From positions 1-64,000 of the IMG/VR virus record IMGVR_UViG_3300031857_013798: a DNA stretch of 64,000 nucleotides; one strand, given 5' to 3'. Of the stretch, positions 4,173 through 59,500 are shown piece after piece. The position numbers were made by a program, and so were the translations under genes. Numbering within the stretch: position 1 is the first letter of the stretch; the number at the start of each line of letters is the position of its first letter. The notes under the pieces were generated by a model, which was not told the origin of the DNA, did no database searches, and was given only the letters and a program-made list of their open reading frames with translations. The stretch comes from a virus.

Positions 4173-4877
4173 TTAAGTTCTTAATTTGGCAAGATACAGT
4201 GCTCTAAACACTGTGAGCCACATCCATCCTGCATCAAACTCAAACCAACGACGACTCAGTCGAGCGTTAGCAGGATCCAGATGATGGTTATTATGCAGGC
4301 ATTCCCCACCAACAATAATATCCCAAGGAACAATGTTTCTGCTGTGATCTTTAGTTTCACCATTTCTATATCCCCACCAGTGACCTAGACCGTTGATTAC
4401 CCCTGCAGCCCAGAATGGAATCCAGATCATTTGTATGCCCCAGATTAAGATGCCCCACCAACCAAATATCAAGGTGTTGAGCACAAAGAGAATGCCAATG
4501 CCAAGTCTACTGTGAGGAGTGTATAAGTGAAGCTCCACCCAATCAGCAGGAGTACCAACACCGTATGCGTCAACCATGATTTTATCTTTTGATGCTTCAT
4601 GATATAATCCTGCTCCTTTAAAGAAAACTCTCTTGATGCCATACACATGTGGGCTGTGTGGATCACCTGGTTGATCACTGTGCCTATGATGCTTGCGATG
4701 TATAGCCACCCATTGCTTGGTAACCATGCCTGTTGTGAGCCATAACCAGGCTCGCATAAAGTGTTCGAGTATGGGATGAAATTCTATACTTCGATGAGCT
4801 TGTCCACGATGCAAATACAAAGTGACGCAAACTATGGTAATGTGTGTCATTACCAGGGTTGCTATTAGTTCTGTCAT
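4173..4877 (-). CDS. membrane fatty acid desaturase (acyl-CoA/delta-9 type)
   Basis: A di-iron membrane desaturase of 234 residues. All three histidine boxes are present: HRGQAH (residues 23-28), HRKHH (60-64) and HNNHH (195-199), with hydrophobic segments between them. It would introduce a double bond into membrane or thioester-bound acyl chains. It is shorter than typical bacterial delta-9 enzymes (about 300 aa) but has the full catalytic set. It converges on the cyclase gene, with one base between their stops, and is last in a minus-strand run with three small membrane genes. A second desaturase is at 35487-36236. Confidence 0.9.
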   Translation of the reverse strand: MTELIATLVMTHITIVCVTLYLHRGQAHRSIEFHPILEHFMRAWLWLTTGMVTKQWVAIHRKHHRHSDQPGDPHSPHVYGIKRVFFKGAGLYHEASKDKIMVDAYGVGTPADWVELHLYTPHSRLGIGILFVLNTLIFGWWGILIWGIQMIWIPFWAAGVINGLGHWWGYRNGETKDHSRNIVPWDIIVGGECLHNNHHLDPANARLSRRWFEFDAGWMWLTVFRALYLAKLRT

Positions 4878-4885
4878 TAAAGTAC

Positions 4886-5227
4886 TTAACTTCCGCCTGG
4901 CTTGGTAGTAGTTTTATCTTGCACTACACTCTTGAACGTTTTTTCAGCTTCATGATCTACTTTGTGTGCTTCCATCACACGATCACTTTCAATCATCTTG
5001 CCACGTAGGTGCAACACTGTGTTGACCTTTTGATTCAAACGAATAAGATCATTGTCCAACATTCTAACGCGGTCAATGAGAGCAATCAACACAGTGTTGG
5101 CATCATTGATAACAGGTTTGACTTCTTTTGTGGCCCATTCCCAAACATACTTGATGATGTAGCCCATGCCCACAGCCATCACAATAGGAAAGCCATATTT
5201 GTTTACTAGTTCAACTACTTCGCTCAT
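4886..5227 (-). CDS. small membrane-anchored coiled-coil protein
   Basis: 113 residues: one N-terminal membrane segment (YGFPIVMAVGMGYIIKYVW) followed by a long helical, heptad-like region (LIALIDRVRMLDNDLIRL). It shares its plan (GFPI plus coiled coil) with the gene at 5409-5690, so the two look like divergent paralogs. The start overlaps the upstream stop (ATGA). The layout recalls small phage holin-like proteins, but function is unknown. Confidence 0.7.
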   Translation of the reverse strand: MSEVVELVNKYGFPIVMAVGMGYIIKYVWEWATKEVKPVINDANTVLIALIDRVRMLDNDLIRLNQKVNTVLHLRGKMIESDRVMEAHKVDHEAEKTFKSVVQDKTTTKPGGS

Positions 5228-5409
5228 TTGACAGATCCTTCCAATACAAATTGGACCATGGGATCCACCTGGTGTAATCTTATTTTTCCATTGACTTCAA
5301 TCATCTGCCAGAACTGTCCAGGCTTCCAGCCCAGTCTTTCAGTGTCTAATTCTTTGTCTGGCACAATATATCCAGGGCCCAGGTCCCAGTTGTAATCAAG
5401 ATGTAACAT
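5224..5409 (-). CDS. 61-aa conserved phage-type hypothetical protein
   Basis: Start at the ATG at 5409, overlapping the upstream TGA (TGATG). A small, soluble, aromatic-rich protein beginning MLHLDYNWDLGPGYIV. I recall similar small proteins from T4-like marine phages but no function. It sits between two paralogous membrane proteins in a coupled three-gene block. Confidence 0.65.
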   Translation of the reverse strand: MLHLDYNWDLGPGYIVPDKELDTERLGWKPGQFWQMIEVNGKIRLHQVDPMVQFVLEGSVK

Positions 5410-5690
5410 CAATCTCTCCTTGCATCATTCTTACCATCTGCTCGTGCAATACGATCCACATCGGGTTTGAGGCCCAGCGCATTTGACACAATGGTATCAA
5501 TGCGAACCACATCATGATTCATGGTCTTTACGCGATTGTCGAGTGCTGTGATGATGCCAGCCATGCCTTTGATTGCACTTAGTACACCGGCTAACAACAG
5601 TTTGATTGTGAGATAAACAAAGTATCCACCTGCTAATGCCACTGCTATTGGAAATCCTAGATCACCAATTAACTTGAAGATGTCCCCCAT
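5409..5690 (-). CDS. small membrane-anchored coiled-coil protein, paralog of 4886-5227
   Basis: 93 residues with one hydrophobic segment (GFPIAVALAGGYFVYLTI) and then a helical region (ITALDNRVKTMNHDVVRI). It aligns by eye with the 4886-5227 protein (GFPI; ALxDRV; ND/HD..RI). A good AAGGAG site precedes the ATG, and a TAAATA motif (minus strand, 5715-5720) lies 24 nt upstream. It is first of a coupled block. Function unknown; a holin-like or envelope role is possible. Confidence 0.7.
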   Translation of the reverse strand: MGDIFKLIGDLGFPIAVALAGGYFVYLTIKLLLAGVLSAIKGMAGIITALDNRVKTMNHDVVRIDTIVSNALGLKPDVDRIARADGKNDARRD

Positions 5691-5717: not shown

Positions 5718-6794
5718 TTATTGACTTTGGACAATGGTAATTGTGGTGGTTCCACCTGTGTTGATTTTTTGATATACAGGAATGCCGTCCTGTTGGAGAT
5801 CCAGTATTGCCCCTTGCTCTTTGGGAACAGTTAGTTCAAAAATATGAGTGCTGTATCTGGTTAAACCCAGCTGTTCTTGATCATCTACCCGCCATTTTAA
5901 TCCTGAGCCAGCGTCATAGCCTGGCAGCATGCTCAGTGTAGTTGACATGGCTTCTTGCGTGGCCGACAAGGCTGCATTTACGGCATCCAACACATTGGGC
6001 AACAGCTCATCTTCTAGTTCATTGCGATCCAGTCGGTTGAATGCATCCAACCGATTGTCTAAATCTGCAGGTTTTAAAAAGTCTCGATCAAGAAAGTTAA
6101 CGTCTAACGCTGTTCGAACATCTTTTTTGTTGTCTCTATGTTCTTCGCTAATTTCTCGGGGCCGGCTGATGATCAGCATGTTGTTGATGTTGGCCTGATC
6201 AATGGTCAACACAACTGGTCTGGTTGGCGGTGTATCTACTGTGGAAACTAAAGTAGCTTGATAGGCCTGTGTCATTAGTATGCTACCAGATTGATTGGAT
6301 ACTTCAATAGCACCTGTTACACATGTTTTGTCATCACAACTGGGCAACAGCATTATTAGACTGCGCCCAAGCTCGTCCACGGTCATTGAAAAGTCTGTGC
6401 CACGCACAGCAATAGAAGCTGTGGGTGTGCTGACTGCAACCTGTTGTGGAGAGTTCTTGGCAATCTGTCCTGATGCATATCTAGCCGTGCCCAGAGCCAC
6501 TTTCATGGCCAACTTGCCTGTGCCTGACTTTGGGTCATACACAAAGTCATCAATTATCAGCTTTGACTGTTCAGTAATTTTGACTTTGGTAGCATCATCA
6601 AATGTAAGTTCAGCTCGGGATCGGGCTGTGACAATGGTGTCATTCATTTCCACTGCGGTATTTACAGCACTGGATATGCTTTTTCGAGCCCGTACTATTT
6701 CAGTAGGGCCAGTTTGTTCAGTGACCTTGCCTACTCCAGCCCAAGTATTAGTCAGACTGAATAATACTGATATTAATGTTATTGCCCGAAGCAT
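5718..6794 (-). CDS. FecR-domain secreted protein in the curli-type operon
   Basis: 358 residues from the ATG at 6794; an upstream GTG at 6806 would overlap the curlin gene more. A signal peptide ends near TNTWA. The FecR domain fills about residues 20-190 and carries the signature TPTASIAVRGTDF. The C-terminal half is helical and charged, ending in a short beta-rich tail. FecR domains act as envelope sensors or cell-surface binding modules. Last of four coupled genes with csgF, csgG and the curlin-like gene, it overlaps the latter by about 47 nt. It may be a surface or adaptor part of the secreted structure. Confidence 0.8.
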   Translation of the reverse strand: MLRAITLISVLFSLTNTWAGVGKVTEQTGPTEIVRARKSISSAVNTAVEMNDTIVTARSRAELTFDDATKVKITEQSKLIIDDFVYDPKSGTGKLAMKVALGTARYASGQIAKNSPQQVAVSTPTASIAVRGTDFSMTVDELGRSLIMLLPSCDDKTCVTGAIEVSNQSGSILMTQAYQATLVSTVDTPPTRPVVLTIDQANINNMLIISRPREISEEHRDNKKDVRTALDVNFLDRDFLKPADLDNRLDAFNRLDRNELEDELLPNVLDAVNAALSATQEAMSTTLSMLPGYDAGSGLKWRVDDQEQLGLTRYSTHIFELTVPKEQGAILDLQQDGIPVYQKINTGGTTTITIVQSQ

Positions 6795-7374
6795 TGACGG
6801 TTGCACTTTGAGTATTCATACCACTCTGTGATACAGTGATTGCATTTGGGGTAGCACCTGAGCCTGACCCAGTAACATTGATTGTGGCTGAGTTGGCGCC
6901 TGATCCTGAACTGCTATGAGTCACATGGTTGTAGTCACCTAGCACTGTGATGTTACTGGTATGCGCTCCACCATTGGTACCTAGGATACTTTGCACATCA
7001 TTGTTGTCACCTGTTATGGTATGCGTGATTGCAGATCCGCTACAGCTGGCGCTGATGCTGGTTCCGCATGTGATGGTCTGTTGGTTGCTGTCGCCTGTGA
7101 TTGTTAACGTCACATTAGTGCCAGCGCCGTTGACCAACATGGCCAGTTGATTGCTACTGCCAGATTGTTCAACGTAAACTACGTTTTGGCCGCCACCAAT
7201 AAAGGCCGGTGCTAGGGCAGAGCCAATGGTATTGTTGCTGCCTGCTTGTTTTAAAGTCACTGTGGCATTATCACCAACTTGCTCTATGTAAATTTCATTT
7301 GAAGCTTGAACATGCGATAAAGCCATCATGCTCAATGCAAATATTGTCCCTTTGAGAGATCTTGTTATTTTCAT
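6748..7374 (-). CDS. curlin-like (CsgA/CsgB-type) repeat protein
   Basis: A secreted 208-residue protein. A signal peptide ends near SHVQA, followed by the curlin-type repeat NEIYIEQVGDNATVTLKQAG and further imperfect units with regularly placed Asn, Gln, Gly and Ser (VYVEQSGSSNQ, ITGDSNQQ, ITVSQSG). The spacing of x-I-x-Q-x-G-x-x-N fits amyloid-forming curlin repeats. Two close Cys (CGTSISASC), absent from E. coli CsgA, could form a disulfide loop. It overlaps csgG by 4 nt. It is the likely substrate of the CsgG/CsgF channel next door. Repeat identity is good by eye, though the middle units are degenerate. Confidence 0.82.
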   Translation of the reverse strand: MKITRSLKGTIFALSMMALSHVQASNEIYIEQVGDNATVTLKQAGSNNTIGSALAPAFIGGGQNVVYVEQSGSSNQLAMLVNGAGTNVTLTITGDSNQQTITCGTSISASCSGSAITHTITGDNNDVQSILGTNGGAHTSNITVLGDYNHVTHSSSGSGANSATINVTGSGSGATPNAITVSQSGMNTQSATVNASGNNINISIIQSD

Positions 7375-8195
7375 TTTTGTTTTGTGGGCAAGTTACTATC
7401 CTCATCCGCACTCCTTGGGCTTGTGCCCTTTTTGTATGACCAAAGTTTCCGTTTTGCTCCTTCTTGGATCATTTCGTACACCGCTTGCTCGATGGCTATT
7501 CGAACAGCGTATGTGGTGGGCTCGTTAATAGCAGCCCCGTTCTCAAGTTCAACACTGGTTGTGCCAAGGTCAACAAATTTGAGAACACCTTGATTGTGAG
7601 CTGTGCTAAACACCGTCTTGCTCACAGCCGTATTCAGCAACACTTCTCCAGTGTTGACTGAAATCACTCGCATGGATATCACAATCTCGTCCACACGATA
7701 TTGAGTACTGGCACCAATGCCTAGCACTCTGGCTCCTCGACCACCAGACGTTATGTTGGTGTCATAACCAATGATGCCACCTTCAATCATGAGTCCAGCT
7801 ACCAACAAAGGCTTGAGCGGCTTGGCATCTTTGCCTTCGTACACTTCACGTTGATTGCGAATCAGTTGACGCTCTTTGATCAAGTTGTCCAGGCCTACAC
7901 GTTCAACCACTGTGAACCAGTTTGGGGTGTCTTGCAAGGCCTTGATCAAAAACACTTCAGCACCTTGTGTTACCGCTGTAGAAAATAACGCCAGCTTGTC
8001 GTTGTTTTTTTTCTGACCAGTCTTGTCCATGAATCCATATACAGCAACAGGTATTCTTGGACCATCTAACTCGGGCAACACAGCCAACAAATTTTGTCGT
8101 GGCACCAATTGAGGTGGCTGTACATCAAATTGAGTTTGATCCAAACTGGCACACCCAGACACAGCCAACAGCAATGATAAAAACAGTGCTTTCAT
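7371..8195 (-). CDS. csgG: CsgG curli secretion channel lipoprotein
   Basis: The outer membrane nonameric export pore for curli subunits. From the ATG at 8195 (TGATG with csgF) it has 274 residues, close to E. coli CsgG (277). The lipobox VSGC puts the lipidated Cys at residue 15. Family landmarks are clear: IPVAVYGFMDKTGQ, FTVVERVGLDNLIKERQ, a GGRGARVLGIGAS stretch, and IVISMRVISVNTGEVL before the second transmembrane hairpin. The C-terminus is a short polar tail. It is flanked by csgF and a curlin-like gene in a coupled operon, strong support for true CsgG function. Confidence 0.95.
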   Translation of the reverse strand: MKALFLSLLLAVSGCASLDQTQFDVQPPQLVPRQNLLAVLPELDGPRIPVAVYGFMDKTGQKKNNDKLALFSTAVTQGAEVFLIKALQDTPNWFTVVERVGLDNLIKERQLIRNQREVYEGKDAKPLKPLLVAGLMIEGGIIGYDTNITSGGRGARVLGIGASTQYRVDEIVISMRVISVNTGEVLLNTAVSKTVFSTAHNQGVLKFVDLGTTSVELENGAAINEPTTYAVRIAIEQAVYEMIQEGAKRKLWSYKKGTSPRSADEDSNLPTKQK

Positions 8196-8635
8196 CAAAA
8201 TGCAAAACTCGCTAGTGGCACAGTGATCTCTGTGCGATTGCCATTGCTTTCTAGAATGGTCATGGTTACATCAGTAGAAGTTTTGACCCAACTGATGTTG
8301 GTGCCTTGGAAATCCATGCTGCCTGTGGTGCCCCCACCGCTGAACAGCGAGTCTGCCAACTGTTTGCTCAACTGAGCGTAGATGCGACTTTCTACGTTGA
8401 CTAGAAATTTAGCTATATTGGTTTGTTTGGCAGCAAGCTCGGCTTTGGCTATCCTGCTTGCTTCTTCTTCTCGTAGTTTCTGACGGCGTGTTGCCTCTAG
8501 TTGTTCGATTGTAAGGACGTGACTACTGTAACCGATACCACTGAACGACGGCGAATTAAATTGATGTACTAGTTCAGTGGCGGTGGCTCCAGCTGTAACC
8601 AGCATCAAGGCTAATGTTGTTATTGTTGTTTTCAT
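8195..8635 (-). CDS. csgF: CsgF curli assembly factor
   Basis: A secreted protein of 146 residues. A signal peptide ends at ATA (residue 19). The mature N-terminus TELVHQFNSPSFSG matches the CsgF segment that inserts into and narrows the CsgG pore (E. coli: TMTFQFRNPNFGG). A helical region (residues 45-95) and a beta-rich C-terminal domain follow (ISWVKTSTDVTMTILESNG), as in CsgF. It is first gene of the curli block, preceded by a terminator hairpin whose loop contains a TAAATA motif. Confidence 0.9.
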   Translation of the reverse strand: MKTTITTLALMLVTAGATATELVHQFNSPSFSGIGYSSHVLTIEQLEATRRQKLREEEASRIAKAELAAKQTNIAKFLVNVESRIYAQLSKQLADSLFSGGGTTGSMDFQGTNISWVKTSTDVTMTILESNGNRTEITVPLASFAF

Positions 8636-8639
8636 AGAA

Positions 8640-8669
8640 AAGCCCCATATAGTATTTACACGGGGCTTC
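8640..8669 (-). terminator. hairpin terminator with a late-type promoter in its loop
   Basis: On the minus strand GAAGCCCC pairs with GGGGCTTTTC around a 15-nt loop. It lies between the 8690-8959 gene and csgF. The loop holds TAAATA (8653-8658), 17 nt before the csgF start. One element may therefore end the upstream transcript and start the curli operon late. Confidence 0.65.
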
Positions 8670-8689
8670 TATGATAATATAACGCGAGT

Positions 8690-12027: not shown

Positions 12028-12603
12028 ATGACCACAGATAACTCCCTACAAATTGAGCAGACTCACACCCAAGCCTTGGCCGACGCTGGAATGTATGTTT
12101 TTATGGGCGAGGTTGATGATGATAACATCAAACCCATAATTGAATGGATCCTGCACGAGAACTTTGTGGCCAAGAAAAAACGCAAAGAACTCTTGCTAAT
12201 GATTTGCTCAGAAGGTGGAGACATGAGTTCAGCATTTGCCTTGATTGATGTCATGCGCAGTTCGGTCATTCCAATCAAAGCTGTGGGGCTGGGGCAAATT
12301 GCCAGTGCCGGATTGTTGATCTTTTTGGCAGGAACACCAGGACGCAGAACACTCACTCCTAATACGTCAATCATGAGTCACCAGTATGCCTGGGGCAGTG
12401 ATGGCAAACATCATGAACTATTGGCCACAATTAAAGAGTTTGAGCTCACACAAAAACGCATGGTACAGCATTATATAGATTGTACAGGTCTAAGCGAAGA
12501 CCAAATCAAGCAACATCTGTTGCCACCGCATGACGTTTATTTGGGTGCGGATGATGCCCTGCGGCTGGGTATCTGTGATCACATCAGCCAAGTGACTCGT
12601 TAA
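12028..12603 (+). CDS. ClpP-family serine protease, divergent
   Basis: 191 residues, the usual ClpP core length. The catalytic triad can be placed at S93 (GQIASAG), H118 (MSHQY) and D169 (HDVYLG). The fold-typical ICSEGGDMSSAFALIDVM strand-helix is present. It is clearly more diverged than the second ClpP at 14232: GQIASAG instead of GQAASMG, and SHQ instead of IHQ. Two ClpP types could form a mixed barrel or act in different steps such as prohead maturation or host protein turnover. Converges on the 12600-14180 gene. Confidence 0.88.
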   Translation: MTTDNSLQIEQTHTQALADAGMYVFMGEVDDDNIKPIIEWILHENFVAKKKRKELLLMICSEGGDMSSAFALIDVMRSSVIPIKAVGLGQIASAGLLIFLAGTPGRRTLTPNTSIMSHQYAWGSDGKHHELLATIKEFELTQKRMVQHYIDCTGLSEDQIKQHLLPPHDVYLGADDALRLGICDHISQVTR

Positions 12604-14180
12604 TTACGTCTGCGTTCTCTGCCCAACACTTCAGCAGTCACCTGAGGTTGTGCTGGGTTTCTAGCTGTTTTCACGCCCGGACCTGTGAGTCTACCAACAG
12701 GCGCCACAGCAGGTGCCACAGCAGGTGCCACTGGCTGCACGGCCCCTCTTGGAACCAACTGTGGAAATTGGCGTTCTAGTGCAGGAATAATTTGCTCTTT
12801 TGGTGTTTTGTTAGCTATCATGTTCAAGGTTGACTTGGCAATTTGCGCTATTAACTTTTGATTGTTGATGCCACGTCTGCCTGCCAATGTCATGACCCAA
12901 TCAGTCAACGCAGAATTGAATGTTGAAGCTGCCATAGGATTTTTTCCTTTGGACAACTGTGTCAATCCTTGTCGAGCCGCGTCACCACCAAATGATGTTT
13001 GTTGAACTCCAATCTGTGGATACACTGATCTAACAGGATCTTTTGTGGCACTAATGTATGGAGTACTGGCGTGGAATCTCAGTCCTTGTGCCAGTAATTG
13101 TTCTGCATCATTGTAGTATATGAATACTTTGCTGTTCAAGTTAAGATAGAGCACGCCGTCGTCTTCTTTTTTGCTCATGTAATAATTGAAACTGGCCTGA
13201 CTCCATTGTTGTGCAGCCGATCCGCTGTCGCCAGTTTCGATAGCTGTCATAATGCCATTTATATTTTTTTTCAATCTTGTGGCATACTCTTTTCTACTGC
13301 CTTTGATATTGCCAAATATGAGAGATATACACCGTTGAGTCAGTGCCAGGAATTTATCACTGTCTGCTGGAGAAAGAAGTTTGTTAAAGTCTATGGCCTG
13401 GTTCAAATTCATGCCGCTGCCGGACAATTTGCGTTTGAGATTTTTGTATGCCTTGTGAGATTTCACAAAATTATTCAACGTCACTGCGGATGCTTCAAAT
13501 CCTTCTGCTGGCCTAACTTCTTGATCTCCAAATCTGGCAGCACCACCCATTTCAGTTTTTAATTCTACTTGGTAAACTTTACCACCTGACTTGATTTGTA
13601 AGTCACCCTTTTTAGATCCGCTGTCCTCGTCATTGTCTTGTTTTGAACTTTTGCCTGCCACAGTAATACTTTTGCTCAGTACGTTCAATCCAAATTCGCC
13701 TCGTCCCATGCCTAATTCCTGGATCATCATAACTTCGTCAACAAATTCTTTTGTGACTGGATTTTCAGTATAACCAGTGAATACCACAGGAAAGTCAACT
13801 TTTTCATTGCTCAGCAGGGCCTGGGTGTTGACCAACCGATCGCTTTTCCAGGTATTGAAAAAATCAGCACGTTGCAACGGCGTGGCACCAACTTCTTCCA
13901 TGATGTTCATTGCTAGTCTTGCCAGAACTTTTTTAGCATCTTGCACAGCTTGATCTTGCACAGCTTCAATTTCTTTACTGATTGATCCCATTCTTCCACC
14001 ATGTGAAATATGCGACAGCAGATCTTCAATTTCTTTAAGAGCTTTTGCAGTAGCAGGGTCGTCTGGAAGATCCTTGATTCTTCTAGAAATCACGTCTTTC
14101 ATGCCTTCAAGTTCAGGGGCAAATTGAGCGTTGACTTCTTCAGTCAGTATGTTGTCGAGTAAATTGAGTAGATCACGCAT
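12600..14180 (-). CDS. large phage protein with PD-(D/E)XK nuclease-like motif
   Basis: 526 residues, no signal peptide. A helical N-terminus (1-150), then [11 protein letters not shown] (E162), KKGDLQI (D193) and VYQVELKTE (E206, K208). This reads as the E..GD..ExK pattern of PD-(D/E)XK nucleases, followed by [17 protein letters not shown]. The long helical second half has a [14 protein letters not shown] region and ends in a Pro/Ala/Val repeat ([11 protein letters not shown]) from tandem 12-base units. I recall similar proteins in T4-like phages of unknown role. It lies between two clpP genes on the other strand. Nuclease activity is inference from the motif. Confidence 0.7.
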
Positions 14181-14208
14181 TGTTTTCTTCCGAGAATAAT
14201 GCTATACT
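14180..14208 (+). promoter_or_regulatory. probable promoter for clpP
   Basis: TGC-TATACT (14203-14208) with a weak -35 TTGTTT (14180-14185) at 17 bp. It lies in the divergent gap before clpP. Confidence 0.55.
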
Positions 14209-14231
14209 TATGCAATCAACCAGGAGACCCC

Positions 14232-14819
14232 ATGTCAAATCTAGTGCCAATTGTTATCGAAAACACTTCCCGAGGCGAACGCAGTTACGACCTTTACAGC
14301 CGCTTGCTCAAAGATCGTGTGATCATGCTGGACGGAGAAGTCACCCAACACACAGCCAGCTTGATCTGTGCGCAGTTATTGTTTTTGGAAAGTGACAACC
14401 CCGACAAAGCCATCAGCTTGTACATCAACTCACCCGGCGGATCAGTCACAGCAGGTATGGCCATTTACGATACCATGAACTTTATCAAGCCCAAAATTCA
14501 CACTATTGTGATGGGGCAGGCTGCCAGCATGGGCTCGTTGTTGGCCGCTGCTGGCGACAAGGGCAATCGCTACATCCTGCCCAATGCACGCCACATGATC
14601 CATCAACCCCTGGGCGGCGCATCGGGTCAGGCCACAGACGTGGAAATTCAAGCTCGAGAACTATTGCGTTGGAAAACTGTGTTGACTGATATCTATGTCA
14701 AACACACTGGCAAACCCCACAAACAACTCAAAGCTGATATGGAACGTGACAATTTCATGACTGCTGGCGAAGCAGTTGAATATGGCCTTGCTGATAAAAT
14801 ATTAATCAAACGAGATTAA
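14232..14819 (+). CDS. clpP: ATP-dependent Clp protease proteolytic subunit
   Basis: A canonical ClpP peptidase of 196 residues. Start at the ATG at 14232 after CAGGAGACCCC. Triad S99 (GQAASMGS), H124 (MIHQPLGG) and D173 ([10 protein letters not shown]); [18 protein letters not shown] is intact. It would assemble as a tetradecamer and needs a Clp ATPase, presumably from the host because none is seen here. Second ClpP-family gene within 2.2 kb. Confidence 0.95.
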
Positions 14820-31655: not shown

Positions 31656-32164
31656 ACCTCAACCTCAAAGAATACGAATATAACGACCTAACAACCGACC
31701 CTTCTTACGGTGCTATTCCCCCATTGGTAAGTGCATTTGATGCAAATACCATGCCAACTGTAATCATAAGTGATACCACCAACATCACTGGCGGATACAC
31801 CATTGGTGGACTCAACGGTGCCACTGGCTCCAACACTGTTTGGACCACAAACAACACAACCACAGGCAGTTTTACAATTGGTGCAAATTACAGTGCAGTA
31901 GGATCTACGATTGAACAAGGTGGCAAGATGAGTCTTAGAGGGGACAAAGCTGATCTTGACATCAATGGCAAGAGTCTTAAAGACTGGATGGAAAAGGTTG
32001 AAGAACGCCTGAACATTCTCACACCAAATCCTGAACTGGAACGAGAGTGGGATGATCTGCGCCGACTGGGAGAACGCTATCGCAAGCTGGAAAAGAAATG
32101 CAAGGAAAAAGCAGAAGTATGGAACAAACTAAAAGCAATGCCCAAGCCGGAGGTCAAATGGTAA
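31628..32164 (+). CDS. conserved phage-type coiled-coil protein (178 aa)
   Basis: N-terminal Gly/Thr/Asn-rich beta-like region (30-100) and a C-terminal part LDINGKSLKDWMEKVEERL followed by ELEREWDDLRRLGERY and LEKKCKEKAEVWNKL, a coiled coil. I recall the second part in many phages. Possibly a virion or assembly protein. Its end overlaps nadE. Confidence 0.78.
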   Translation: MATYKNDWVNLNLKEYEYNDLTTDPSYGAIPPLVSAFDANTMPTVIISDTTNITGGYTIGGLNGATGSNTVWTTNNTTTGSFTIGANYSAVGSTIEQGGKMSLRGDKADLDINGKSLKDWMEKVEERLNILTPNPELEREWDDLRRLGERYRKLEKKCKEKAEVWNKLKAMPKPEVKW

Positions 32165-32970
32165 CACCAAAGCAACGTATCAAGCACATTGTAAAATGGA
32201 TCCGACAATACGCAACAAAAAACAAGATCTCTACACTAGTTGTAGGGATCTCAGGTGGGATTGACTCATCTGTTGTGAGTGCATTATGCGCCGAAACAGG
32301 ACTCACAACCATTGTGGTGCAAATGCCCATCCGCCAAAACAAGAAGCTGGACAATCGCAGTTCAATGCAGGCTACCTGGTTGATGGAACGCTACAAAAAC
32401 GTCACACACATGAGCATGGATTTGACGTCTGTGTTCTCTGCGTTTGAAAAGAAAACTGTGCCATTTTGTGATGCAGAAAATGCATCACAAGTTGAACTGG
32501 CTTTTGCCAACTCACGTGCTAGATTGCGTATGATGACCTTGTACCAAATTGCACAATGCCATGGTGGTATTGTAGTAGGCACCGGCAACCGAGTGGAAGA
32601 CTTTGGTGTGGGCTTCTTTACCAAGTATGGTGATGGTGGTGTGGATATCAGCCCCATCGGCGACTGCATGAAAACAGAAGTATGGGATATGGGTAGAGAG
32701 TTTGGGCTGCCACAAGAAATCATTGATGCCGCACCCACCGACGGCTTGTGGGATGATGGGCGCACAGACGAAGGTCAACTGGGCATGAGCTACCCAGATC
32801 TTGAGCGCATGATGGCCTTGGACTTTTTGCAACGATGCAAGGCTGTGGACTCCGACATGCCTGGCAGCGCCAAATTGTCAGCAGATGATAGAAAAAAACT
32901 CAAGCGGTACCAAGACATTCGTGCTAGAAACATGCACAAGATGCTGCCAATACCGGTCTGCAAGTTTTGA
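32158..32970 (+). CDS. nadE: NAD+ synthetase
   Basis: ATP-pyrophosphatase of 270 residues making NAD+ from nicotinate adenine dinucleotide. Start at the ATG at 32158 behind GGAGG. The P-loop S32GGIDSS38 is intact, as are NSRARLRMMTLYQIA, GTGNRVEDFGVGFFTKYGDG and DGRTDEGQLGMSY. It lacks an N-terminal glutaminase domain, so it should be the ammonia-dependent type. It would raise host NAD during infection. Confidence 0.95.
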   Translation: MVTPKQRIKHIVKWIRQYATKNKISTLVVGISGGIDSSVVSALCAETGLTTIVVQMPIRQNKKLDNRSSMQATWLMERYKNVTHMSMDLTSVFSAFEKKTVPFCDAENASQVELAFANSRARLRMMTLYQIAQCHGGIVVGTGNRVEDFGVGFFTKYGDGGVDISPIGDCMKTEVWDMGREFGLPQEIIDAAPTDGLWDDGRTDEGQLGMSYPDLERMMALDFLQRCKAVDSDMPGSAKLSADDRKKLKRYQDIRARNMHKMLPIPVCKF

Positions 32971-35211: not shown

Positions 35212-35490
35212 ATGACACGCGACGAAGTCAAAACAGTTATTTTGAGGATTTGCAAAAAACAGTACGATCTAGACATTGACAACTTTGCAGAGGATGCACC
35301 TCTTGCAGACTTGCAAAATATCAATCCCAAGATTGATTCACTGTCTGTGATTGAAATGATATTTGATGTTGAAGATGAACTTGGCATCAAAGTAAACTCT
35401 GCTGACATGAGTCAGCCAGCTAACTTGGCAGAAATCATTGACAGTTTGACCGAAGCTGTGAACGATCCGGTCAATCGTGTTAAAAAATGA
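35212..35490 (+). CDS. acyl carrier protein
   Basis: 92 residues after GAAAGG. The phosphopantetheine site is Ser43 in PKIDSLSVIEMIFDVEDELG, the standard DSL context of ACP, within an acidic four-helix layout. It overlaps the desaturase gene by 4 nt, and that overlaps a ketoacyl synthase, so it probably supplies the carrier for a phage acyl-modifying pathway. A host synthase would attach the prosthetic group. Confidence 0.92.
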   Translation: MTRDEVKTVILRICKKQYDLDIDNFAEDAPLADLQNINPKIDSLSVIEMIFDVEDELGIKVNSADMSQPANLAEIIDSLTEAVNDPVNRVKK

Positions 35491-36236
35491 TTTGGCAAGG
35501 TGATCCTGACAGAACCAAACAGGTTCTCTCAGTTCAATTGATTGTTGCGATGCTGGGCATACCAGTATTGGTATATCAATGGCATTGGTGGTACGCAATA
35601 TACCTTGTGTTCTTTTACAGTTTTTTGTTGTTCATCTCACACCATGCAGGATTGCATAGATACTTCTCACACCGCAGTTACACAGTCACTCCGTTTTGGC
35701 ATGCATTTTTGTGTGTGAGTTCTTGTTTGGCCTGTTTTGGGTCACCAGTTGGTTATTCCATCATCCACCGAGCCCATCATGTACACACAGACACTGCACA
35801 AGATCCACATGCTCCAGACATTGGAATTCTCAATGTGATACTGTTCAATTGGAACTTGTCCAATCTCAGCATGTGGGATGGCATTAGAGATCTAAGAGAT
35901 CCTTGGATGAAGTTCACTCACAATTATTACGCATTGATTGTTTTGACGTTTGCATTGGTGCTATTGGCCATTGACCCCGTATTGTTTTTGTGCTATAGTA
36001 TTGCTAATGCAGGAGCATTGTTGGCCATGGGTTTTGTGAACACCGTGTGTCACACTCACGGTTTGACCACCTATCAGAATCATGCCACAAAGGATACCAG
36101 TTCAAATAGCTATCTAGCCCTAGTCATTGGAGAATGGCACAACAATCATCATGCCAATCCACAACGGTGGAATCAACGTGAGCAGTGGTGGGAAGTTGAC
36201 TATGCGGCACAATTTATTCGACTGATCAAAACATGA
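35487..36236 (+). CDS. fatty acid desaturase (membrane di-iron)
   Basis: 249 residues with histidine boxes HRYFSH (57-62), HRAHH (94-98) and HNNHH (218-222), the delta-9 type pattern, and four to five membrane segments. It is coupled between ACP and ketoacyl synthase genes, which suggests action on ACP- or phospholipid-linked chains. Distinct from the desaturase at 4173 (HRGQAH first box). Confidence 0.92.
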   Translation: MIWQGDPDRTKQVLSVQLIVAMLGIPVLVYQWHWWYAIYLVFFYSFLLFISHHAGLHRYFSHRSYTVTPFWHAFLCVSSCLACFGSPVGYSIIHRAHHVHTDTAQDPHAPDIGILNVILFNWNLSNLSMWDGIRDLRDPWMKFTHNYYALIVLTFALVLLAIDPVLFLCYSIANAGALLAMGFVNTVCHTHGLTTYQNHATKDTSSNSYLALVIGEWHNNHHANPQRWNQREQWWEVDYAAQFIRLIKT

Positions 36237-58105: not shown

Positions 58106-58368
58106 GATACCTAATCCTGACCTACTATAAGAAGCCTACTGGCCAAATTGATGAAGTTATGGCTGTGGCCAAAAATCTCAAAACAAGAGATCATGCCACT
58201 GCCAATGTTATTCTTGATTTTAAAAAGCTAGAGGTAGTGAAGTGCAGTATGGGCGGAGTGCAAGTTCCTAGAGACTTTAACAAAATTGTAGAATACTACA
58301 TGAAACACTATGAATCAACCATAACACGGTTGTTCAACGAGAATGGATATGAAATTGTTGAGCCATAA
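58102..58368 (+). CDS. conserved phage-type protein after the clamp loader (88 aa)
   Basis: Coupled by ATGA. MRYLILTYYKKPTGQIDEVM then KTRDHATANVILDFKKLEVV and YMKHYESTITRLFNENGY. I recall similar proteins beside gp44 in T4-like marine phages. Perhaps clamp loader-related. Confidence 0.8.
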   Translation: MRYLILTYYKKPTGQIDEVMAVAKNLKTRDHATANVILDFKKLEVVKCSMGGVQVPRDFNKIVEYYMKHYESTITRLFNENGYEIVEP

Positions 58369-59500
58369 GAAAAAGTTTTTCTTATTCAAAGAGTCAAAAC
58401 ATTTTTGTGCAGTACCATGGAACCATTTTCAAATTTTTTCTGATGGTGCTGTTCGCACTTGCAGCAAAGGAATTCCGTTTGGCAATATAAATGATCAACC
58501 GCTGGATCAAATCTTACAGTCAGCAGATATACAGGCAATCAAACAAGATTTATTACAAGATACTTTCAATCAAAACTGCACAGCTTGTCATCGCCTGACC
58601 ACTGGTACTGAGCACTTTGATTTACGCAATCATTATAATCCCATGTTTAAAAACTTTGATATCAACTATGAAGATATCACTGCATTTGAACTTAATGGCG
58701 TTGATTTACATTGGGACAATACCTGCAATTTTAAATGTGTGTATTGCAATCCGGCTCAAAGCAGTTTGATTGCACAAGAACAAGGCATAACAACCAATCG
58801 AAGTGACAACAAGAATATTGATGACATTATTGCTAGGATTGAACAAAATCAGTATGTCATGAAAGAGATATATCTTTCTGGTGGCGAACCGTTGTTGATC
58901 AAACACAATGTTAAATTACTCAAAAAACTTGTCAATACAGAACTTCCAATAAGAATCAATTCAAACATCAGTCAAGCCACTGACTCTAATTCAGTGTTTG
59001 TCGAACTCAAACGATTTAAAAATGTTCTTTGGACTGTGAGTGCAGACTGTATAGAAGATAAATTCAATTATGTAAGACAAGGCGGCAACTGGAATCAGTT
59101 TCTTAACAATCTCAAAACTATCAAAACACTTGGTCATGACATACGATTAAATCTAGTATGGTTTGTGGGCAGTGTATCTGACTTGACTGATACTATCAAA
59201 TATTTTGTGCAAGAGCACGGAATTACAGACATCACAATCAATCAACTGTACAAACATCAATATCTACGTGCCAGGCATGCACCCACTGCAATCAAGCAAC
59301 TTGCTTGCACACAGATAAATCAATTGTTGACATCTGGACTGATTGAAAACAAATCAAACTCCTGGTTCAATATTGCAAGATGTACACAAGAATTAGAAAC
59401 AGTAGAGTCTGATCCTTCGGGATATGTCAAATATTTTGATCATTTGGACCAGCTGCGGGGCACCAATTGGCGCCGGGTGTTTCCGGAGCTGGTAGTATGA
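58343..59500 (+). CDS. radical SAM protein with N-terminal twitch-type cysteines
   Basis: 385 residues. The radical SAM core has C128-x3-C132-x2-C135 (NTCNFKCVYCNP) and the LSGGEPLL motif. Before it lies a Cys cluster (HFCAVPWNHFQIFSDG, TCSKG, CTACH) as in SPASM/twitch auxiliary cluster domains, here N-terminal. Such enzymes modify peptides or cofactors. It is coupled to an SDR enzyme, and a HAD protein follows, suggesting a small pathway. Substrate unknown. Confidence 0.9.
   Translation: MDMKLLSHKKKFFLFKESKHFCAVPWNHFQIFSDGAVRTCSKGIPFGNINDQPLDQILQSADIQAIKQDLLQDTFNQNCTACHRLTTGTEHFDLRNHYNPMFKNFDINYEDITAFELNGVDLHWDNTCNFKCVYCNPAQSSLIAQEQGITTNRSDNKNIDDIIARIEQNQYVMKEIYLSGGEPLLIKHNVKLLKKLVNTELPIRINSNISQATDSNSVFVELKRFKNVLWTVSADCIEDKFNYVRQGGNWNQFLNNLKTIKTLGHDIRLNLVWFVGSVSDLTDTIKYFVQEHGITDITINQLYKHQYLRARHAPTAIKQLACTQINQLLTSGLIENKSNSWFNIARCTQELETVESDPSGYVKYFDHLDQLRGTNWRRVFPELVV

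Follow-up and report, generated by a model that had tools for sequence, protein, structure and literature searches.

A curli-type export module, possibly joined to an envelope sensor, in a large T4-like phage

Phage-encoded curli (type VIII export) modules were published between 2020 and 2022 (PMC7029224, PMC9004378, PMC9599517), and modules with curlin repeats, FecR and an adenylate cyclase were described in 2022 (PMC9599517). The roles proposed for them are aggregation ('sibling capture'), superinfection defence, an uptake pore and a lysis pore (PMC7029224, PMC9599517, PMC9004378). The reason why phages give a dying cell both a surface-fibre exporter and a cyclic-AMP sensor is unexplained. 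Here, we describe a rearranged member of this group, encoded in the first 64,000 bases of the IMG/VR virus record IMGVR_UViG_3300031857_013798 (bases 1-64000 of 286,229, hereafter the window), which we tentatively interpret as a curli-type exporter joined to an envelope sensor. Judged by its sequence, the source virus is a large T4-like phage: the record has a gene for a T4 gp23-type major capsid protein (242722-243690, E=5.6e-98), and a T4 gp44-type clamp loader gene lies in the window. A 364,404-base contig holds a 5-kb stretch identical to the window locus.

The closest described systems are the type VIII modules of pelagiphages and methylophages (HTVC008M, Melnitz and HTVC023P-type podophages; PMC7029224, PMC9004378, PMC9599517), which share the whole gene set with the window. 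The window CsgG, CsgF and FecR proteins are 40-48% identical to those of HTVC008M and Melnitz, but the window differs from these phages in its larger T4-like genome, the position of a pair of small proteins designated T18a and T18b (after FecR, not ahead of CsgF), a cyclase gene encoded on the other strand, a single curlin gene where these phages have two, and an inserted desaturase gene. Alphaproteobacterial curli operons (Caulobacteraceae L088/L090 and Hyphomonas L099) have the same gene order CsgF-CsgG-curlin-FecR-cyclase, whereas the T18 pair was not found in their genomes. The E. coli curli system (csgBAC-csgDEFG) has homologous CsgG and CsgF proteins and related curlin repeats; in contrast to it, the window has no detectable CsgE and no separate CsgA/CsgB pair, and adds FecR, the cyclase and T18. 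In a tree of 98 CsgG proteins, all phage sequences and the FecR/cyclase-bearing operons of Caulobacteraceae and Hyphomonas form one clade (support 100/97) apart from all other bacterial CsgG. The tree, whose root is not fixed, fits transfer in either direction between phages and bacteria.

An original prediction, made from the letters of the window and its open reading frames, had described four overlapping minus-strand genes as an operon encoding an export machine. All four reading frames are present (Table 1), with overlaps of 4, 4 and about 47-59 bases, the last between curlin and FecR. The one boundary to be revised is the FecR start, for which ATG 6794 (MLRAITLISVLFSLTNTWA, a signal peptide) is more likely than GTG 6806, the start of the frame at 5718-6806. 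That one conserved operon groups the channel and CsgF with FecR and a candidate substrate also stands, although such a machine is not new (PMC9599517). However, the prediction missed two constant components and left FecR without a role: by its gene content across phages, the module reaches beyond the four genes to include a CHASE2-domain cyclase on the other strand and the T18a/T18b pair.

This extension comes from the survey of related phages that the prediction had called for. Scanning viral contigs for CsgG yielded 80 loci, of which the 36 with full flanks were used for counts. CsgF, CsgG, curlin, FecR and the CHASE2 cyclase were each present in 36/36. T18b was found inside the flank in 31 loci, and longer contigs added L014, L030 and L033 (34/36); the two contigs without T18 after the longer search are 25 and 37 kb long. 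The reciprocal scan, seeded from T18b, recovered T18a in 46, the cyclase in 45, curlin in 44 and FecR in 42 of 46 loci of 20 kb. Three gene arrangements were observed, with T18 ahead of CsgF, after FecR (as in the window) or convergent after the cyclase. That so many phages keep the whole set argues for a working machine, and the constant co-inheritance of the export genes, FecR, the CHASE2 cyclase and T18 in these phages shows selection on the whole circuit rather than on a stray pore. A desaturase-like gene occurs in 13/36 of the loci; it is a frequent neighbour and probably lies outside the module. Sm62, the small protein encoded between T18a and T18b, has no Pfam match.

In a search of 50,697 phage records, the only matches to curlin, CsgF, FecR, T18a and T18b were four Melnitz and two HTVC008M records. 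The cyclase matched the same six and, via its catalytic part, two Acinetobacter phage records, while CsgG matched the same six and one 1.5-kb record. The latter (OR851715.1, 'Salmonella phage S.Kent 1-2-1') encodes a CsgG 41% identical to that of the window and is probably host curli DNA filed as phage.

Table 1. Positions in the window of the module genes and their immediate neighbours (aa, amino acids).
Feature	Position	Strand	Evidence
CsgF homologue, 146 aa, signal peptide, predicted pore-inserting N-terminal stretch ELVHQFNSPSFSG	8195-8635	-	PF10614 E=1.1e-14, phrog_35372 E=7.7e-45
CsgG outer-membrane export channel, lipoprotein, 275 aa	7371-8198	-	PF03783 E=4.5e-52, E. coli CsgG structures
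Secreted curlin-repeat protein, 208 aa, candidate export substrate	6748-7374	-	Family profile, AlphaFold2
Secreted FecR-domain protein, putative curlin-like C-terminus	5718-6794	-	PF04773 E=1.8e-10, Foldseek, hhalign
T18a, single transmembrane helix and coiled coil, 93 aa, C-terminal DARRD	5409-5690	-	phrog_18771 E=5.5e-29
Sm62, 62 aa, between T18a and T18b	5224-5412	-	12/36 full-flank loci
T18b, single transmembrane helix and coiled coil, 113 aa, motif LIDRIRMLDNDLIRLNQKV	4886-5227	-	phrog_18771 E=6.2e-29
Fatty-acid desaturase, between T18b and cyclase	4173-4877	-	PF00487 E=7.3e-14
CHASE2-domain class III adenylate/guanylate cyclase, 683 aa	2120-4171	+	PF05226 E=1.6e-37, PF00211 E=8.1e-15

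The identities assigned to the four operon genes by the original prediction agree with the profile and structure comparisons. CsgG has the lipobox SGC, with Cys16 invariant in 36 relatives, and its residues 4-257 align to E. coli CsgG structures (E=4e-48), in line with a lipoprotein of full-length fold. In the alignment, the constriction residues that we take to be Tyr51 and Asn55 in E. coli numbering are replaced by Asn and Leu, and Phe56 is kept. The CsgF family hidden Markov model (HMM) aligns the N-terminus of the phage protein to E. coli CsgF residues 5-52, spanning the pore-inserting stretch GTMTFQFRNPNFGG, and this N-terminus is the predicted pore-inserting part of the window CsgF. Several relatives carry a C-terminal bacterial SH3 domain on CsgG (L048:9959-11137, L014:10004-11146 and L066:9959-11206; SH3_3 with E-values as low as 5.6e-9), and this fusion could link the pore to peptidoglycan. 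The CsgG protein of the window has no SH3 domain.

The identity of the secreted curlin-repeat protein was settled by a profile of 38 family members, which matches both the solved curlin-repeat structure 8c50 (E=6.7e-11) and the E. coli CsgA fibril 8enq (E=0.0011). Its AlphaFold2 model (mean predicted local distance difference test score 87.4, predicted template modelling score 0.80) is all-beta with regularly spaced strands. It is the sole curlin-repeat gene in the 286-kb record. Two residues, Cys103 and Cys111, are nearly invariant in the phage curlin family and possibly form a disulphide-stapled loop; translated E. coli CsgA and CsgB have no such cysteines. The second curlin protein of HTVC008M (L003:8567-9892, annotated as hypothetical) contains an N-terminal PA14 domain (E=2.7e-6) ahead of the curlin repeats, a possible carbohydrate-binding tip.

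The fold of the FecR domain was matched by Foldseek to the cell-surface-signalling domain of PupR (6ovk, E=3.7e-5). The signal peptide directly precedes this domain, which is followed by a low-confidence linker and a C-terminal beta region; unlike classical FecR, the protein has no cytoplasmic anti-sigma domain at its N-terminus, and it has no transmembrane helix besides the signal peptide. In hhalign comparisons, the tail of the FecR family (last ~55-60 residues) aligned end to end with the curlin C-terminus (70.7%, E=3.8e-5, score 31.8), compared to a mean score of 10.6 (standard deviation 2.1, maximum 19.7) in 300 column shuffles, 13.2 for the reversed alignment and <=17.9 for FecR blocks off the tail region. 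With moderate confidence, the FecR tail can be regarded as curlin-like. That the tail copies E. coli CsgB or CsgA was rejected for want of a significant match (hhalign scores of 14.1 and 16.3), and the claim is therefore restricted to the phage curlin family.

The genomic neighbourhood of CHASE2 proteins points to a partner for FecR. Of the CHASE2 genes in 115 alphaproteobacterial genomes, the 100 best-scoring were examined, and 35 of these have a FecR gene no more than 3 kb away (25 with both genes on one strand) versus ~0.6 expected. A Burkholderia operon of FecR and a CHASE2-kinase (BiofilmReg) controls biofilm (PMC5192318), and Sinorhizobium CHASE2 cyclases sense a protein via an outer-membrane barrel (PMC13001267). 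The window shares with such signalling pairs a secreted FecR protein adjoining an inner-membrane CHASE2 enzyme, whereas the output of BiofilmReg is a histidine kinase, and the input of the Sinorhizobium cyclases is NsrA rather than a curli channel. Based on this neighbourhood and these precedents, FecR is likely to be the periplasmic partner of the cyclase. The module may explain the function of the many alphaproteobacterial FecR-CHASE2 pairs. Nearly all 108 module cyclases keep the metal aspartates D431 and D477, the adenine-specifying Lys473 and the transition-state residue Arg558. In about half of them, including the window enzyme, Asp547 takes the place of the substrate-site Thr/Ser and Ser554 that of the transition-state Asn (N554S); the matching counts suggest that these two positions change together.

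The gene identities, the conserved gene set, the domain architecture and the tail similarity are established features of this module. From them we infer localisation, export, anchoring, signalling and benefit as follows. The curlin protein would leave the cytoplasm by Sec and cross the outer membrane through the CsgG-CsgF pore, and the infected cell would present it on its surface. FecR, itself secreted, would reside in the periplasm with its FecR domain facing the inner-membrane CHASE2 cyclase, and its curlin-like tail may pair with curlin or enter the pore, thereby anchoring or monitoring the exported protein. The cyclase would convert this state to cyclic AMP in the host cytoplasm, with the T18a/T18b coiled-coil pair as a putative phage-specific inner-membrane partner of the circuit. 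The elements of this arrangement that the sequence supports are the channel with the insertion stretch of CsgF, the Sec signals, a curlin substrate, a FecR domain in the periplasm with its curlin-like tail, and a cyclase in the inner membrane. The most likely benefit would be that the surface of the cell is altered while it is infected, so that infected cells adhere or aggregate or are shielded from other phages; adhesion, aggregation and a superinfection block are equally plausible. An unlikely elaboration makes FecR a chimeric anchor-sensor, whose tail would engage exported curlin as CsgB does CsgA while the periplasmic FecR domain drives the cyclase, so that the phage would read the cell surface as cyclic AMP. 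If true, this would be the first viral outside-to-inside signalling circuit around an exported amyloid.

Several observations weigh against an exporter joined to a sensor. As a single sequence, the curlin protein matches PF07012 at E=0.0067 and 16.8 bits, under the 20.7 cut-off; its repeats are degenerate in the second half, and Foldseek found no PDB match for the model at E<=0.001, the best being the functional amyloid FapC (E=0.024). The curlin HMM detected the tail in 0/72 single FecR sequences, so the tail similarity rests on the profile-profile comparison. The activity of the window cyclase is uncertain because Ser554 replaces the transition-state Asn. As the original prediction had noted, CsgE, which improves secretion in E. 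coli, is not seen: an E. coli CsgE query matched no viral loci and ~20 bacterial loci in the same search, and a CsgE going by a different name was rejected on this ground. The alphaproteobacterial relatives are also devoid of CsgE, so this protein is not universal. Finally, Melnitz infections showed no clumping in culture (PMC9004378).

The strongest rivals are plain regulated curli and a lysis pore. The former, suggested in PMC7029224 and PMC9599517, takes the products for adhesive amyloid fibres by which infected or sibling cells stick together or superinfection is blocked, with FecR and the cyclase only regulating expression, and the set of channel, chaperone and curlin is indeed complete. 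However, expression control would have no visible output, as FecR lacks an anti-sigma domain and the region, in which no search was aimed at CsgD, showed neither a sigma factor nor a CsgD-like regulator. Regulation also gives no reason for the curlin-like FecR tail, and the absence of clumping with Melnitz counts against adhesive fibres as well. We regard this published view as possible, if on the unlikely side.

Somewhat more doubtful is a lysis-timing pore, put forward for Melnitz (PMC9004378), in which CsgG-CsgF would open a hole in the outer membrane late in infection and so depolarise or weaken the envelope, T18a and T18b would act as a holin-like pair in the inner membrane, and curlin would be a plug, not a fibre. 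Both T18 proteins combine a single hydrophobic helix at the N-terminus with a conserved coiled coil and have a holin-like size and topology, and 15 of 48 T18 members show a weak match to the holin family phrog_4898; moreover, the SH3 domain on the CsgG of some relatives could bind peptidoglycan. However, the match of T18b (E=1.2e-4) spans residues 1-23 only, the best family for T18 is phrog_18771 of unknown function, and no significant full-length match to any holin family was found. Bacterial relatives also keep CsgF-CsgG-curlin-FecR-cyclase without T18, and the constant FecR, curlin and CHASE2 cyclase genes are left unexplained, for which reason lysis alone was rejected as the main model. 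The same objection led to the rejection, as the main model, of uptake alone, a very improbable reading suggested in PMC7029224 in which CsgG-CsgF without the CsgE gate, not found in viral loci, would be an open channel for large nutrients entering the infected cell: a PstS gene (583-1608) is encoded close by, but CsgF, curlin and FecR would not be needed, yet all are constant, and a curlin substrate with a signal peptide always adjoins CsgG.

In Melnitz and HTVC008M, the T18 pair is located ahead of CsgF and annotated as hypothetical. Published phage modules were reported to contain a histidine kinase, 'sometimes two', always ahead of CsgF (PMC9599517). No HisKA or HATPase domain was detected in the 48 T18 members scanned, and from the position we infer that the published 'histidine kinase' is T18. 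Phage-type module contigs are also present in metagenome-assembled genomes from GTDB (L085, L086, L106, L108, L126 and L133) labelled Flavobacteriaceae, Rhodobacteraceae, Sphingobacteriales, Saprospirales and Synechococcus. T4 gp23 was found in 4/5 of the checked assemblies with T18, and they therefore probably include mis-binned phage contigs rather than T18 genes of bacteria. Since the true bacterial relatives have no T18 and the T18-bearing assemblies are probably contaminated, T18 is, by its distribution, a phage addition to the module.

Several elements are new compared with the published modules: a much larger T4-like phage carries a rearranged member, the T18 pair is constant and specific to phages, a FecR protein without an anti-sigma part has a putative curlin-like tail, CsgG is fused to an SH3 domain in relatives, and the published kinase annotation is probably corrected. 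In our incomplete coverage of the literature, we found such modules reported from no very large phage, and the papers on large aquatic phages that it includes do not mention curli. The work corrects a likely annotation error and gives FecR a testable role.

No excess of promoters was seen near the operon, with two T4 late promoter motifs (TATAAATA) in the window versus 1.2 expected and no excess in a sigma-70 scan. A tRNA scan for host prediction gave none in the window, and an Rfam scan of the window had no match, indicating that there is no glutamine riboswitch as in Melnitz. A hairpin (AGCCCC...GGGGCT, then TTTTCT) is located at 8636-8675, immediately ahead of the CsgF start codon, and may serve either to terminate the upstream gene or to control translation. 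Elsewhere in the window, two ClpP-like serine protease genes (12028-12603 and 14199-14819) surround an opposite-strand gene for a 526-aa protein (12600-14180), which matched no PHROG or Pfam family. Auxiliary genes at 583-1608, 4173-4877, 35487-36236, 32098-32970 and 58343-59500 encode a PstS-like phosphate-binding protein (near the module), two desaturase-like proteins, an NAD synthetase and a radical-SAM QueE-like protein.

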